Assembly: GCA_029258915.1 (NCBI GenBank)
Contig: JAPDJU010000005.1
Location: 124,001-188,000 of the forward strand
DNA length: 64,000 nt
Direction: 5' to 3'
Source of the DNA: Thermoproteota archaeon
Lineage (GTDB): Archaea > Thermoproteota > Thermoprotei_A > EX4484-217-1
Part shown: positions 31,297 to 50,812 of the stretch, in pieces
Position numbering within the stretch: the stretch's first letter is position 1
Layout of the letters: the number at the start of each line of letters is the position of its first letter
The notes under the pieces: generated by a model
The model's input: the letters and a program-made list of their open reading frames with translations, nothing else
Told to the model about the DNA's origin: nothing
Databases searched by the model: none
Made by a program: the position numbers and the translations under genes

Positions 31297-31406
31297 ACTA
31301 CATTCTCCTCAGAAACTTAACACATGCCATTAGCATCTATGAATTTTTACTACATCCTTTGCTAAAATATTTTAGTAGCGAAACACTACAGTTAAAGGGA
31401 AAGAAG

Positions 31407-32135
31407 TTGAAGATAAAAGTAAAGCCTTTCGCTATATTCAGAGACATCATAGGTAAGGCTGAGTTTACGTTAGAGTTTGATTCTGAAATTTCTGTTGGTA
31501 AACTAATAAACTACTTAAAAGAGAGGTTTCCAGACATCAGTATGTACATTGATGAATATGAAATAGAACCCGTAATAGTCTTAGTAAACGGTAAACCGGC
31601 TACTGGGAAGACTATGTTAAGAGACGGCGATGAAGTAGCATTTTTCCCTCCAGCAGCTGGAGGTACTAGTGAGGGTAAAGTAATTACACAAGATGTAGAT
31701 ATAGAAAAAATTATTCAAAAAATAAGAAATGTAAAAGACTTTGATAAAGTAGGTGCCATGGTTATTTTCATAGGCTTTGTGAAGGGAACTATAGGTAATA
31801 AAAAGGTGTATGGATTATCGTATGAGGCATATGAACCTTACGCTTCAAAAAAACTGCAGGAAATAGCTAATGATCTTTTAAAAAACGATAAAGTTGTTGA
31901 TGTTAGAATATACCATAAGGTAGCCAATTTAAAACCTGGAGAAACAACTATCTACATTATGGTATCTGCTATAGATAGAAATACCGCGTTTGAAACAGCA
32001 AGAAAAGCACTTGAAAGAGTTAAAAAAGAGATTCCTATATGGAAGCTTGAAGTAAGAGATAATGGGGAATATTGGGTTATAGGTGATGGAAAGCGTGTAC
32101 CTAGACCCGTGAAAAGTAAGACTAAATTAAACTAA
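31407..32135 (+). CDS. MoaD-MoaE fusion (molybdopterin synthase)
   Basis: Residues 1-86 form a MoaD/ubiquitin-like domain ending F-F-P-P-A-A-G-G (Gly85-Gly86). Residues about 95-242 are MoaE, with I-G-F-V-K-G, Y-E-A-Y-E-P, I-Y-H-K-V-A and K-K-E-I-P-I-W-K-L-E. Molybdopterin synthase adds two sulfurs to precursor Z, which requires a free C-terminal Gly-Gly thiocarboxylate on MoaD; here it is followed by T-S-E-G-K. Cleavage after Gly86 is therefore expected. The start is placed at TTG 31407 (M-K-I-K-V-K-P-F); an in-frame TTG at 31359 would add 16 residues. Confidence 0.88.
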   Translation: MKIKVKPFAIFRDIIGKAEFTLEFDSEISVGKLINYLKERFPDISMYIDEYEIEPVIVLVNGKPATGKTMLRDGDEVAFFPPAAGGTSEGKVITQDVDIEKIIQKIRNVKDFDKVGAMVIFIGFVKGTIGNKKVYGLSYEAYEPYASKKLQEIANDLLKNDKVVDVRIYHKVANLKPGETTIYIMVSAIDRNTAFETARKALERVKKEIPIWKLEVRDNGEYWVIGDGKRVPRPVKSKTKLN

Positions 32136-32523
32136 TAATTACCTCCTTTACTTCTTTATTAACTATATATGCTCCATAGCTTCCTGAAGTAGAATCTATT
32201 ATTAACCAAGGTATATGCCATAATCTCATATACTTTAGATCTACTTTCGACGGGTATGGTGATGCCTTATGGGAATGAAATATTCCAATAACTTCTAGGT
32301 TTTTCTTATAAGCATACATAAACACCTTATAAACTTCAAGCGGATCCATGTAAAACATTTCCTCTCTATTTACAGCAATGTTCCTTACGAACACTGTTTC
32401 TAATACTTTAAAAATTGATTTTTCAACCCTACCTAATAGTAGTCCACATATTTCATATTGAGCATGTAAAGCATTATTCACTATTTTTGCTAGCTCACTC
32501 TTACTAATAACCAAGATTATCAT
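32122..32523 (-). CDS. JAMM/MPN+ metalloprotease
   Basis: 133-residue JAMM-domain isopeptidase with Glu24 in Y-E-I-C-G-L-L-L-G and the zinc motif H-S-H-K-A-S-P-Y-P-S-K-V-D (His83, His85, Ser92, Asp95). The spacing between His85 and Ser is six residues rather than the usual seven. Haloferax JAMM1 is known to release MoaE-linked and SAMP-type ubiquitin-like proteins after Gly-Gly. It faces the MoaD-MoaE fusion, overlapping by 14 bases at the 3' ends, so that protein is the obvious candidate substrate. Confidence 0.85.
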   Translation of the reverse strand: MIILVISKSELAKIVNNALHAQYEICGLLLGRVEKSIFKVLETVFVRNIAVNREEMFYMDPLEVYKVFMYAYKKNLEVIGIFHSHKASPYPSKVDLKYMRLWHIPWLIIDSTSGSYGAYIVNKEVKEVIISLI

Positions 32524-33822: not shown

Positions 33823-33902
33823 GGGTAATCATCTAAATACTTTGACTATGTCTACTATAGACATAATAGTTTTTAGATATCTACCTTAATAACTTATCTT
33901 AG

Positions 33903-33958
33903 ATGATGAGTGTGGCGGGCTTGACTCTAAAGAGGATGAAGACTTAGGAGCCCCCTGA
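33903..33958 (+). ncRNA. C/D box sRNA, D' guide complementary to 16S decoding site
   Basis: C ATGATGA 33903-33909, guide GTGTGGCGGGC 33910-33920, D' TTGA 33921-33924, C' AGGATGA 33933-33939, guide AGACTTAGGAGCCCC, D CTGA 33955-33958. The first guide pairs over all 11 nt (one G-U) with the universal 16S segment GCCCGUCACAC, E. coli G1401-C1411. The fifth base before D' faces G1405. The D guide target (GGGGCUCCUAAGUCU) was not placed. It ends 28 bases before the TPR gene start, on the same strand. Confidence 0.82.
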
Positions 33959-42391: not shown

Positions 42392-45300
42392 TTACCATGA
42401 AACCTCAGCTTCCTTCCCTGCTTTTATAGGAACAAGCATGGCGAGTTTCTGCAATTCTCCATGCAGGTTTCTTAGTATATCAATGTAATTTAATTCTCCT
42501 CTTTCTATTGCCTCCATGATTTGTTCTAGCAGTCTTGTTGTTTCTTCTGAAACGAAAGGTTCAAAGTTATTGTAGAGATAGGAATAAACACTCTTACCTG
42601 TAGCTGTAGGGACTAAGTATTTGTTTTTGCTTTCAATAACGTATCCTCTTTTAAGAATTGTGCTTAAAACTTTAGCATATGTCGAAGGTCTTCCTATACC
42701 TTTTTCCTTCATCAACTTTATTACATCACCTTGCCTATAGAGCCTTTCCAAAGAGCCTTTCCATAGTCTATAGCTAACTATTTTTAAAACATCGCCTTTG
42801 CTTATACTACGCCATGATTCATTAACAGTTATAGGTAAAACTTTAAGGAATCCTTCTTTAATTACTTTGGAAACGAATTCTATAACTTTCACGTTCTCCC
42901 CTATCTTGACGTGTAACCTTGTCTTTTCAACAACGGCTTTAATCATTTGACTCGCTATAAATCGTCTAAATATTAAATCATAGACTTTAAAATGGTCGTA
43001 TGTAAGGTTAGCATATACTTTTATTGAACCTGTTAAGATCATTTTCCTTAAACGCTCAACATCCAGTGGCCTTGTAGGTCTAATGCATTCATGAGCGCCA
43101 TGTGGACTCCATTTTCTGGGATTAAACAGTTCTTCATCATTAAAGACATCTTTTAAGTAGCTTTTTGCAACTTCTATGCCTTGATTTGAAACCCTTATGC
43201 TATCTGTTCTGTGATATGTTATAAGACCTGATTCAAAGAGCTGCTGAAGAATTTTCATAGCATATTTAGTATCCATCCTATAGTATGTTGAAAGATCGAA
43301 AAGCAAACTATTGGTATTGTAAGGAGGCGGTGGATTTATTTCCTCAGTAAAACTGGACTTTATAAGTATAAATGCACCACTCTTAGCATAGTCTTTAATC
43401 ATAGCCCTATTTACATGTACATCGTAGTCTATCCTTACCGTTAACCCGTTTTCTAGAACATAATCTACAAATAATCTACGTGTTTTCTTCCATTTTTCAT
43501 GCTGCTTTATTATCCATCCTAGTACTGGTGTTTGCACTCTTCCGGCCGAAAGCCAATGTTTGCCAAAATACAACCATAGTTTTCTTGATAGTTCAAACCC
43601 TATCCATCTGTCTTCAATTCTCCTAACAATCTGAGCCTCAACAAGTCTCAGATTAATACCTCTAGGTCTGGCTAAAGCATTCACTATAGCTCTTCTAGTT
43701 ATTTCATGAAATTCTATTCTGTATATTTCCCCTACATATGGCTTTAAAAGAACATAAATATCCCATGCTATTTTTTCTCCTTCACTATCAGGATCCGTTG
43801 CTATAAAGACGACATCAACTTCTTGTGCTAACCTACGGAGAATATCAATTACTTCTTTAGAATCCATTATTCTTGATGATTCACATTTAGGACAAATATT
43901 TTCATCTAATGTAAACTGGTATCCACAGCTTCTACACCGTTTAATCGTTGAATATACGGGTGTTATAGTATTATTTACCAGTACACCATGATATCCTATT
44001 TCATTATCAGAAACTAAGTCTAATATATGGCCTCTTGTAGCTACTATAGTCACCATATAGTCCTTTGTACCTAAAATAGGGTCCCCTATTATTACCTCAT
44101 ATGCCATGATCCTGCCTAGTCTTCTCTTAGACGGCTTTCCAAAAAACGAGGCTATGGTTCTAGCTTTTGTTGGTGATTCCACCACCATAAGAGCTGAAAT
44201 AATAGGGTCTTTAAAAACCGCTTTTACTTTTCCTTCTAAAATGCTTTTTACAAATTCTCTGTCTTTGTCTATTTCTGCTATTACCTTCTCTAAGTTTACC
44301 TGACTTAACAGCTTTGTCTCAAATGCATCTATGTAGTATTTTAGCTGCTTACAGAACGCCTTGAAAACCTTCTCACTATCTACAATAACTATAGATAATC
44401 CCTTTGTCATACCATTAGCGAACATTCTTGATGTTCTACCACTGGCTTGAATATATGTCATAACGTCAGGTACTACAACGTAAAGTTTACCGTTTATTTC
44501 TCTTAATATTAGTAAGTTGTTTTCCTTAACCTTACGCTTTATATCTTCAATGTAAACTTTACTAAGAATATAATTCTTTACCTCTACCAGGAAAAGCCTA
44601 ATTTTCTCTAGAAACCCTTCTAATGCAACATTCTCTCTTAACGATTTAATTATTAATCTATGTTCTTTATAGCTTATCTTTTCTATGACCTTTCTTAACC
44701 TGTTAATGTAACTGGCTATTCTATCTTTGTCATCATCAATTATATCTTCCAATACTAAAAGCATAGACAGTATTTTTAGTGGATTATTCAAGCTCTTATC
44801 TAAAGCAACTTGAAACTTAGGAACGCCAAGGAATATAGCGTATCTTATTTTATCAGGTATGTCGAGGCCTCTAACTATAACACCATAGTAGCTGGCAACG
44901 CCAACTAAGATATCAACGTCGCCTTTAATGAACTTTTCAATGTATCCTCTTCTTGAAGACGATGCTAAGGCAGCTTTAATGTTTTCTTTATTTAAATATT
45001 GTACAAGATCCTTTGCTACGTTTATACCTAGGTCTTGAGAAATAAAGATTAGGCCTCCGGGGCCTAAGGTTTTAACAAAATCCAATATCTGCTTCTTGTA
45101 GTCATCATCCATATAAACATACGTGTCAGCAACATTCCTCATATATTCTACAACGGTTCCTGCTTCAAAGTTTAAAAGTTCTTTAAAAATTTTAGCTTTA
45201 ATGCCTTTACTTCTACCTGTAGCACTACTTACTACTACTTGGCCTATTTTATGTCCTTTAATATAGTCTTCTATTTCCTTTCTTAATTTGGCTATTTTAT

Positions 45301-46117
45301 TTTTCTTTTCCTCTATTTTGTCGTACTGAGCATTGGTCATTAAGAGCTTAACTAACTCTATTTTGTCAAGTACGAGTCTATACGCCTTATTAATTACATC
45401 ACTGTTAAAACCTATTAGCTGAAGAACCCTATCTACATTCTTAGAGTTTCTTAGTAAAGCATCTACATCGTCAACTATGATTAATGTAAATCTATTTTTA
45501 GCTATTTTATCAAAGTTTCTAGATAGCTGTGCTGCTGTAGATAGTAATATGTCAAACTCTCCCTTAGTTAAAATTTTCTTTTCCTCTTCTCTATGATATT
45601 GCCGGCAGCCTAAAGCTAACACTTTAATGTTAAGGGAGGATGAATTAACTATGTTTAATATACCATTATACACTTGCTTTAACAATACCTTAGTGGGAAC
45701 TATGAAGTATAATTTCCCTTTTCCCTTGGCTATATGGTATAAACTATAAACCATTAAGAAAGTTGTTTTCCCTACACCAGTAGGTGCTATTATAGCAAAG
45801 CTTTCTCCTCTTATTAATCTCTTAGCCCATGTTCTTTGAGCGCTCCAAGGTGTCTTACCTGTAATTGTTTTAAAGAACTTTAAAAAATCCTTAAACTCTG
45901 TCTCTAAATCGTATATTTTTTTAAACTTTAATAGTTTGTTCTTGAAGAGAAGTTTTTCATATATGAATTTAATTTTCTCTTTCTCTCTTAAATATTCTTC
46001 ATATCTGAGATCACATGCAGGTAAACATTTTTCACATGGTAAGCCTAATTCAAGTCTCTCAGAAGAAATAGACCCCTCACAATTAGGGCATACTCTACAT
46101 ATTACAGTAAAAGGCAA
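42392..46117 (-). CDS. rgy: Reverse gyrase
   Basis: 1241-residue fusion of an SF2 helicase and topoisomerase IA, which introduces positive supercoils and is the hallmark of hyperthermophiles. The N-terminal zinc finger has Cys10, Cys13, Cys28 and Cys31. Walker A is A-P-T-G-V-G-K-T (111-118) and Walker B I-V-D-D-V-D. The TOPRIM domain begins V-V-E-S-P-T-K-A-R-T, with D-P-D-S-E-G-E further on; a second zinc finger is C-R-S-C ... C-P-K-C. The catalytic tyrosine is Tyr968 in T-Y-H-R-T-D-S. All parts are present and uninterrupted. Confidence 0.97.
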   Translation of the reverse strand: MPFTVICRVCPNCEGSISSERLELGLPCEKCLPACDLRYEEYLREKEKIKFIYEKLLFKNKLLKFKKIYDLETEFKDFLKFFKTITGKTPWSAQRTWAKRLIRGESFAIIAPTGVGKTTFLMVYSLYHIAKGKGKLYFIVPTKVLLKQVYNGILNIVNSSSLNIKVLALGCRQYHREEEKKILTKGEFDILLSTAAQLSRNFDKIAKNRFTLIIVDDVDALLRNSKNVDRVLQLIGFNSDVINKAYRLVLDKIELVKLLMTNAQYDKIEEKKNKIAKLRKEIEDYIKGHKIGQVVVSSATGRSKGIKAKIFKELLNFEAGTVVEYMRNVADTYVYMDDDYKKQILDFVKTLGPGGLIFISQDLGINVAKDLVQYLNKENIKAALASSSRRGYIEKFIKGDVDILVGVASYYGVIVRGLDIPDKIRYAIFLGVPKFQVALDKSLNNPLKILSMLLVLEDIIDDDKDRIASYINRLRKVIEKISYKEHRLIIKSLRENVALEGFLEKIRLFLVEVKNYILSKVYIEDIKRKVKENNLLILREINGKLYVVVPDVMTYIQASGRTSRMFANGMTKGLSIVIVDSEKVFKAFCKQLKYYIDAFETKLLSQVNLEKVIAEIDKDREFVKSILEGKVKAVFKDPIISALMVVESPTKARTIASFFGKPSKRRLGRIMAYEVIIGDPILGTKDYMVTIVATRGHILDLVSDNEIGYHGVLVNNTITPVYSTIKRCRSCGYQFTLDENICPKCESSRIMDSKEVIDILRRLAQEVDVVFIATDPDSEGEKIAWDIYVLLKPYVGEIYRIEFHEITRRAIVNALARPRGINLRLVEAQIVRRIEDRWIGFELSRKLWLYFGKHWLSAGRVQTPVLGWIIKQHEKWKKTRRLFVDYVLENGLTVRIDYDVHVNRAMIKDYAKSGAFILIKSSFTEEINPPPPYNTNSLLFDLSTYYRMDTKYAMKILQQLFESGLITYHRTDSIRVSNQGIEVAKSYLKDVFNDEELFNPRKWSPHGAHECIRPTRPLDVERLRKMILTGSIKVYANLTYDHFKVYDLIFRRFIASQMIKAVVEKTRLHVKIGENVKVIEFVSKVIKEGFLKVLPITVNESWRSISKGDVLKIVSYRLWKGSLERLYRQGDVIKLMKEKGIGRPSTYAKVLSTILKRGYVIESKNKYLVPTATGKSVYSYLYNNFEPFVSEETTRLLEQIMEAIERGELNYIDILRNLHGELQKLAMLVPIKAGKEAEVSW

Positions 46118-49497: not shown

Positions 49498-49549
49498 GCC
49501 CGTGCATTATATTTTGGGTATTTTCGAAACTACGGGAACCTGCACGGGC
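49498..49549 (-). repeat. Inverted repeat spanning tnpB 3' end (possible omega-RNA stem)
   Basis: Arms GCCCGTGCA (49498-49506) and TGCACGGGC (49541-49549) flank the last 11 codons and the stop of tnpB. A perfect 9-bp stem at the 3' end of a TnpB gene is where its guide RNA scaffold and the element's right end are expected. Confidence 0.5.
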
Positions 49550-50736
49550 TTCCCCTTCATCCCTTCTTGGGTTTGCATTTGGTCAGGGGCTTTCGGGGTC
49601 TCCACGGAACCACGAGACCCCACATCCTGAGTGAGGAGCCTAAATCCTCTTAGAGCTAGGTTCCAAGAAGCAACAATATCCCTAGTAACGACGTGTCCAT
49701 TAGGTAGCTTAACTAATCTGTAGCTAATAAAAGAGAGTTTACCGCCAATGGGTGATGCCTTAGAAGTGCCTCTGGGATTAACATACATTACTGGTATTCC
49801 TTCCATTAATACCTTATAGTTTATGTATGACTGTATCCTACGGTATGTCCATAGCGATAGTTTCTTATTGAATTTCTTAGAACCATTTACTCTATTCCTT
49901 AGCTTGCTTAAGTCCTCAAGGAGTATTACTGCATTATATTCCTTCGCTATCTCTACTAACTTCCTAGACATGTGATGGCATGAATCATTAAGTATATTTT
50001 TTGCTCTCCTCCCGTGCTTCCTAATGGATTCTTTTATTCCTTTAACATACCTCCATTTCCTAGAATACCTCCTCTGTATCTTCTCAGCAATAATTCTATG
50101 GGTTAACGCTCTCTTCAAACCACTAAACGATGTAGTACCCGTAGTTATGAGTCTACCTTCTAGATCAGTTATCGTGAATGTTATATTGTTGAAGTTAATG
50201 TCTACACCCATAACGGCTTTAGGTCTTCTTAACTCCACCTCCCTCTCGAAGGTTAAATACACCCATATAGTGTTGACCCTATAACTTACTAGTATTTCTT
50301 TAAGCCTCCATGAGTTGTTAAGGTACTTATCTAGGTAGTCATACCATATTAGCTTCAGTTCTACCCATTCATTATTGAGGACAGCTACTCTCATTATTTT
50401 GTTTCTTATGTCTAGTTTGTAGTCTTGGTAGTCTAGTCTCGCTGTTAGCTTCCTCAGAACTGGTTTTGAGCCTCCATTCTTCTTGGTTGCTTTTACTACT
50501 TCTCTCGCTCTTTTCTCAATCTTGTGGCAATGATGCGCACGGAAACCTTGCTCTCTAAGTGCTCTGTAGAACCTGTGGTGTAGCTCCCTTATAGAAGGTA
50601 TGTGATCTAAATACCATACCTCGTTAGCTACATATTGTGTCCAGTCACGAAATGCTTTGAGGAACAGTATTAGTTTATGGAGGGAGCTAGGATTAGGAGT
50701 AACCACCTTCACCTTTGCGGTTACTTTAACCCTCAT
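49507..50736 (-). CDS. tnpB: TnpB (RNA-guided nuclease) lacking zinc-ribbon cysteines
   Basis: IS200/IS605-family OrfB with RuvC residues D in V-M-G-V-D-I-N, E in L-L-E-D-L-S, and D in T-R-D-I-V-A-S-W-N-L-A. The nucleic-acid-binding N-terminus is basic. The zinc ribbon that normally reads T-S-x2-C-x2-C-G ... C-x2-C is present only as T-S-K-A-S-P-I-G-G with no cysteines up to the last RuvC aspartate. The start is set at ATG 50736 behind GGAG; ATG 50751 is an alternative. No TnpA is present, so the element is non-autonomous. Confidence 0.88.
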   Translation of the reverse strand: MRVKVTAKVKVVTPNPSSLHKLILFLKAFRDWTQYVANEVWYLDHIPSIRELHHRFYRALREQGFRAHHCHKIEKRAREVVKATKKNGGSKPVLRKLTARLDYQDYKLDIRNKIMRVAVLNNEWVELKLIWYDYLDKYLNNSWRLKEILVSYRVNTIWVYLTFEREVELRRPKAVMGVDINFNNITFTITDLEGRLITTGTTSFSGLKRALTHRIIAEKIQRRYSRKWRYVKGIKESIRKHGRRAKNILNDSCHHMSRKLVEIAKEYNAVILLEDLSKLRNRVNGSKKFNKKLSLWTYRRIQSYINYKVLMEGIPVMYVNPRGTSKASPIGGKLSFISYRLVKLPNGHVVTRDIVASWNLALRGFRLLTQDVGSRGSVETPKAPDQMQTQEGMKGKPVQVPVVSKIPKI

Positions 50737-50771
50737 CCCCAGCTCCCACATAATGAATTTTATGTGAACAG

Positions 50772-50780
50772 TTTTATAAG
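50772..50780. promoter_or_regulatory. Bidirectional TATA element between tnpB and small gene
   Basis: TTTTATAAG reads as a TATA box on both strands. It is about 25-40 bases from the tnpB start on one side and 33 bases from the ATG of the 48-aa gene on the other. A single site may drive both genes. Confidence 0.45.
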
Positions 50781-50812
50781 TTTTTGTACACAATTATTAC
50801 CTTGGTGTGAGT

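Follow-up and report, generated by a model that had tools for sequence, protein, structure and literature searches.

The window analysed here, a stretch of 64,000 nucleotides of Thermoproteota DNA, contains a Thermoproteota-wide dual-guide C/D box sRNA that probably docks on the 3′ ends of pre-tRNA-Lys and pre-tRNA-Trp, where the sRNP that it is predicted to form would control or time 3′ maturation. Comparative sequence analysis establishes an RNA gene, pairing of its D guide with tRNA trailers that is accompanied by compensatory changes, and selection for CA at trailer positions +1 and +2, and the results hint that the maturation of tRNA ends may include a step guided by RNA.

The sRNA is placed in a 164-nt intergenic gap, flanked by a minus-strand open reading frame (start 33822) and a plus-strand TPR gene (start 33987), and reads ATGATGA-GTGTGGCGGGC-TTGA-CTCTAAAGAGG-ATGAAGA-CTTAGGAGCCCC-CTGA. 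The elements, together with the D guide target, are as follows:

33903–33958, plus strand: C/D box sRNA gene, with all four boxes, 56 nt from the C box through the D box
33903–33909, plus strand: C box ATGATGA, read from the sequence (RTGANGA in relatives)
33910–33921, plus strand: D′ guide GTGTGGCGGGC(T), fitting the 3′ end GGCCCG-CCA-CAU of pre-tRNA-Lys(UUU) and pre-tRNA-Arg(UCG)
33921–33924, plus strand: D′ box TTGA, overlapping the 12-nt reading of the guide by one base
33925–33935, plus strand: D′–C′ spacer CTCTAAAGAGG, a short possible hairpin
33936–33942, plus strand: C′ box ATGAAGA, placed by alignment with RTGAAGA of relatives
33943–33954, plus strand: D guide CTTAGGAGCCCC, 12 nt, with the complement GGGCUCCUAA at +13 in the pre-tRNA-Trp trailer
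33955–33958, plus strand: D box CTGA, read from the sequence
G000:C6:26903–26912, minus strand: D guide target GGGCUCCUAA in the pre-tRNA-Trp trailer

The initial annotation had called a C/D box sRNA here, and this call holds, with the boxes in place and comparative support from relatives; the C box, the 11-nt guide GTGTGGCGGGC (33910–33920) and the D′ box TTGA are likewise present as claimed. C (RUGAUGA) and D (CUGA) boxes lie near the ends at 33903–33958 with D′ and C′ boxes between them, an arrangement kept in relatives, and directly 5′ of D and D′ stand guides of ~10–12 nt that have a conserved RNA target and are complementary to pre-tRNA. The D′ guide GTGTGGCGGGC is found once within the window, and Rfam returned no match above the gathering score anywhere in the 64 kb. 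Elsewhere in the window, a ThiS/MoaD-MoaE fusion gene adjoins, convergently, a JAMM/Prok-JAB protease gene (31359–32523), an arrangement that recalls the processing of ubiquitin-like modifiers. A reverse gyrase with zf_Rg, DEAD, Toprim and Topoisom_bac domains (42392–46117, minus strand) indicates a hyperthermophile, and a TnpB/Cas12f1-like protein is encoded at 49507–50793 (minus strand).

When an 86-nt stretch was used as a BLAST query against 60 relatives, matches were obtained in two genomes, G006 (query 13–69, 88% identical) and G024 (query 15–69, 82% identical). These alignments correspond to window positions 33902–33958, and because the homology ends exactly at the limits of the C and D boxes, it points to a real RNA gene. 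The box-guide-box-guide-box layout is common to ~50 further Thermoproteota loci, and a pattern scan of GTDB genomes with both guides recovered 32 loci, all labelled as Thermoproteota and none bacterial, distributed among Desulfurococcales, Pyrodictiaceae, Zestosphaera and MAGs assigned to ‘Sulfolobales’ and ‘Thermoprotei’. Alignment of the relatives identifies ATGAAGA as the C′ box and gives 12 nt for both guides in most members, with a D′ box CNGA following the 12-nt guide in most of them.

Several families depart from this layout. In several relatives of families f5 and f8 (for example L003, L004, L092, L104 and L107), the D′–C′ loop is a long stem-loop and the D′ box is one base shorter, so that a K-turn seems to stand in place of the usual K-loop. 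Family f9 (L114, L115, L118 and L018, presumably Sulfolobaceae) keeps the D′ guide and has a different D guide, which fits the body of tRNA-Lys at most, with an 8-nt complementarity (CGUAGGUC) to the variable-loop region in G012 and G031 and one of 7 nt in G032 and G014. The f12 loci L075 and L076 hold a diverged C/D sRNA (guide ATGTGGCGGC, D guide CTTAGAAGGG) that may belong, remotely, to the sRNA family.

The D guide CTTAGGAGCCCC forms 10 of 10 pairs with GGGCUCCUAA, located 13 nt past the CCA of the organism’s own pre-tRNA-Trp, at −19.2 kcal/mol, compared with −11.9 for the next best of its own tRNA trailers. Since the D guide is identical in different lineages, its exact complement GGGCTCCTAA was sought in nine genomes; none of them has more than six occurrences, one being the sRNA itself where the guide has that sequence. 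In seven of the nine, the complement lies just past a tRNA CCA, namely that of tRNA-Trp in G000, G024, G080, G103, G133 and G153 and that of tRNA-Lys in G018; ARAGORN gives some of these tRNA-Trp genes another label on account of their introns, and Trp was assigned from the shared exon sequence. With tRNA-Trp and tRNA-Lys genes gathered from 44 more genomes, the D motif begins 12–20 nt after the CCA in 27 tRNA-Trp genes from eight family-level groups, the intervening bases being variable, and also past the CCA of tRNA-Lys in some lineages. Trailer shuffling gave p of ~0.003–0.013 in 34 of 48 genomes, the floor being 0.003. Three genomes (G126, G147 and G155; loci L314, L288 and L282) keep the D guide as TTAGGAGCCC; their tRNA-Trp trailers have neither the D motif nor CA at +1/+2, and the motif was also absent from the tRNA-Lys trailers examined.

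The guide and the trailer change together. Over nine pairs and 19 distinct guide-target rows, which are related rather than phylogenetically independent (one clade, f8, contributes five) and for some of which the best-matching segment of a 45-nt trailer was taken as the target, 97.1% of cells are paired, and changes on both sides are seen at six of the nine pairs, in 24 cells. None of 500 shuffles reaches the observed percentage paired, number of changed cells or covariation score, and 5 of 500 reach the number of pairs; sliding by 1–3 columns lowers pairing to 58.5% or less. Examples of guides with their trailers are:

G018: guide ATAGGAGCCC, trailer GGGCTCCTAT
G033: guide CAGGAGCCC, trailer GGGCTCCTG (CAGG/CCTG)
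G116: guide TCTAGGAGCCCTT, trailer AAGGGCTCCTAGA
G176: guide TAGGAGCCT, trailer AGGCTCCTA (GCCT/AGGC)
Family f8 (G093, G099, G134): guide GTGGACCCG, tRNA-Lys trailer CGGGTCCAC

The D′ guide GTGTGGCGGGCT forms a 12-position duplex with the pre-tRNA-Lys 3′ end GGCCCG-CCA-CAU that spans the 3′ cleavage site. In the organism’s own genome, the full duplex is available only with tRNA-Lys(UUU) (−25.0 kcal/mol) and tRNA-Arg(UCG) (−24.4 kcal/mol). When the four 5′ guide positions were left free, TGTG remained invariant in true family matches, and this recurrence at unconstrained positions argues that TGTGGCGG is selected. Its complement CCGCCACA corresponds to C71-C72-G73-C74-C75-A76 of tRNA-Lys followed by the trailer CA. 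Across genomes, 31 of 34 tRNA-Lys genes carry this CA at +1/+2; among the 40 tRNAs of the organism’s own genome, five have CA directly after the encoded CCA. In tRNA-Trp, CA occupies +1/+2 in 27/27 genes with the D motif and in 1/11 without it; thus, CA tracks the D motif, which indicates joint gain and joint loss of the two guide sites on tRNA-Trp. These gene counts, too, are not phylogenetically independent. Judged by sequence, the D′ pairing is imperfect outside the organism’s own clade: guide position −3 places T or A opposite C70 in most lineages, and a C of the guide lies opposite A73 of tRNA-Trp.

On the basis of these pairings, we suggest that the D′ guide would engage C71-C72-G73-CCA of pre-tRNA-Lys, here also of pre-tRNA-Arg(UCG), together with the CA that opens the trailer, as well as CCA-CA of pre-tRNA-Trp around the A73 mismatch, and that the D guide would engage a short motif located ~12–20 nt inside the pre-tRNA-Trp trailer and, in some lineages, the pre-tRNA-Lys trailer. 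A predicted L7Ae-Nop5-fibrillarin sRNP would form and bind the precursor, such that the D′ duplex lies over the point behind the CCA at which RNase Z cuts and the D duplex holds the trailer, and 3′ maturation would thereby be controlled or timed. Archaeal (methanogen) RNase Z cleaves directly after an encoded CCA (PMC7479834); binding of the sRNP to the precursor 3′ end, with control of its maturation, is favoured because the D′ duplex would span this cut and the D duplex would hold the trailer. The precursor may also become 2′-O-methylated, with the predicted N+5 position being C72 or G73 when counted from D′ (the choice varies with the start assigned to D′) and, when counted from D, the C in the trailer GGGC. 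More tentatively, the sRNP may serve mainly as an RNA-guided factor in tRNA 3′-end maturation rather than as a methylation guide, setting the time or place of the RNase Z cut on pre-tRNA-Lys and pre-tRNA-Trp.

It is possible, if rather doubtful, that the RNA is instead a conventional 2′-O-methylation guide acting on uncleaved pre-tRNA, with the D′ guide directing modification of C72 (or G73) in tRNA-Lys and tRNA-Arg and the D guide either methylating the trailer or being a side product. The standard C/D layout with 12-nt guides would be expected of such an RNA, 16% of Pyrobaculum guides have predicted tRNA targets (PMC7994747), and the organism’s own duplex between the D′ guide and pre-tRNA-Lys is free of mismatches. 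However, the D site lies in RNA that is discarded, and the mismatch at −3 in most lineages is two nucleotides from N+5. In addition, the D-box offset in family f10 is shifted by two nucleotides with the pairing kept, and consequently the predicted N+5 nucleotide is not conserved.

E. coli has tRNA-derived sponges of sRNAs, for example 3′ETS-leuZ, and with this precedent the tRNA trailers could be regarded as decoys that titrate the sRNA away from a true target elsewhere. While co-varying trailer pairing would appear identical under such an arrangement, we consider it improbable: the D′ guide fits the pre-tRNA-Lys and pre-tRNA-Trp 3′ ends too, CA at +1/+2 follows the D motif, no conserved rRNA target was found, and the organism’s own SRP RNA and RNase P RNA offer no good match to a guide.

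The initial annotation had directed the D′ guide to the decoding site of the 16S rRNA, with an 11-nt duplex containing one G–U pair and methylation of G1405. A guide function at this site, or at a neighbouring site in h27 near E. coli 877, is now very improbable. In its favour, the guide can form 9 pairs with GCCCGUCGC (−18.8 kcal/mol) and, in h27, 10 with AGCCCGCCGC (−21.6 kcal/mol) within the organism’s own genome, and for S. acidocaldarius and N. equitans there are predicted h44 sites close to A1408 (PMC4644070). However, where GCCCGUCACAC had been assumed to be universally conserved, the organism’s own 16S reads GCCCGUCGCUC; the decoding site (G000:C8) has CACACCGCCCGTCGCTCCACCC and lacks the ACAC end. 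The alignment of guide and own 16S, which the annotation had proposed as a check, therefore reveals the very difference that it had named as telling against it, and the duplex comprises 9 contiguous pairs, including two G–U, followed by a mismatch. Indeed, 138 of 150 shuffled guides equal the score of the real guide somewhere in the organism’s 16S and 23S, which places the decoding-site match at chance level, and several other places in 16S and 23S pair with the guide equally well or better. In many relatives, GGTC or GGAC replaces GGGC in the guide, whereas the 16S segment is constant (11 other genomes with full 16S); thus, no 16S target is maintained, and no unbroken complementarity to the own 16S is kept in relatives. 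The guide TGTG suits the CACA of the pre-tRNA, not the CGCU of 16S, and the duplex with pre-tRNA-Lys is the stronger one (−25.0 versus −18.8 kcal/mol).

Neither the decoding site nor the h27 site co-varies with the guide, and three further candidates were likewise rejected. The 16S 530-loop sequence CAGCCGCCGCGG is present in 12/12 genomes, but it offers only 8 core pairs, two of them G–U, and CGCG would suit it better than the TGTG that the guide invariably has. For the D guide, AGGGUUCCU in 23S requires a G–U pair everywhere and is changed in family f11. The anticodon loop CTCCTAA of tRNA-Arg(CCU) has a mismatch at position 31 in the organism’s own genome. We note that the single 16S gene (G000:C8:29093–31288, minus strand) is 2196 bp long against an expected ~1480, with an insertion of ~700 bp between GGTCGGG and the AATTGACGG region, upstream of the decoding site; a reading frame within the insertion looks like a LAGLIDADG homing endonuclease. 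The own 23S match is also ~700 bp longer than the model. Finally, trailers are short and could share a signal, but the idea that the motif in the Trp trailer resembles the guide complement by coincidence, being a conserved terminator or processing signal with no connection to the sRNA, is largely refuted because guide and trailer co-vary, with compensatory changes in several lineages and with family f8 changed wholesale on both sides and moved to the Lys trailer.

In its C/D′ and C′/D boxes, its two 11–12-nt guides, its 56-nt length and its single intergenic gene, the RNA is similar to other archaeal C/D box sRNAs. Archaeal guides for 2′-O-methylation of rRNA and tRNA target mature RNA, whereas both guides here fit precursor-tRNA 3′ ends, including the trailer that is removed. 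C/D guides that act on tRNA are already known, as is one encoded in the intron of pre-tRNA-Trp (PMC7994747). The latter (sR50; Cm34/Um39) is likewise a guide for precursor tRNA, including tRNA-Trp, but acts on the anticodon arm and belongs to euryarchaea, whereas the present RNA is a separate gene of Thermoproteota that addresses the 3′ end and trailer. The proposed chaperone C/D sRNAs, such as sR15 and sR17 of N. equitans, likewise use two guides to contact neighbouring positions in a single precursor, the client there being pre-rRNA and here pre-tRNA. The bacterial 3′ETS-leuZ sponge shares the complementarity of an sRNA to a tRNA 3′ external spacer; here, however, an archaeal C/D sRNP is predicted, the other guide matches the acceptor/CCA junction, and a sponge role is only a rival reading.

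About one third of archaeal C/D sRNAs have no significant complementarity to rRNA, and for many of these the matches to tRNA or 5S are uncompiled (Dennis et al. 2015, PMC4644070); some archaeal C/D guides are termed orphans. Trailers go unmentioned in the review text (PMC7994747), and our search of the openly readable literature yielded no guide directed at tRNA trailers, although a mention in a target table elsewhere is possible. The case presented here illustrates that a plausible rRNA match of a G+C-rich guide can be due to chance, and a guide without an rRNA target gains a co-varying partner in a tRNA tail that exists only in the precursor. If the proposed docking is correct, the maturation of tRNA 3′ ends would gain an RNA-guided component, and targets of C/D guides would be worth seeking in precursor sequences as well as in mature rRNA and tRNA.
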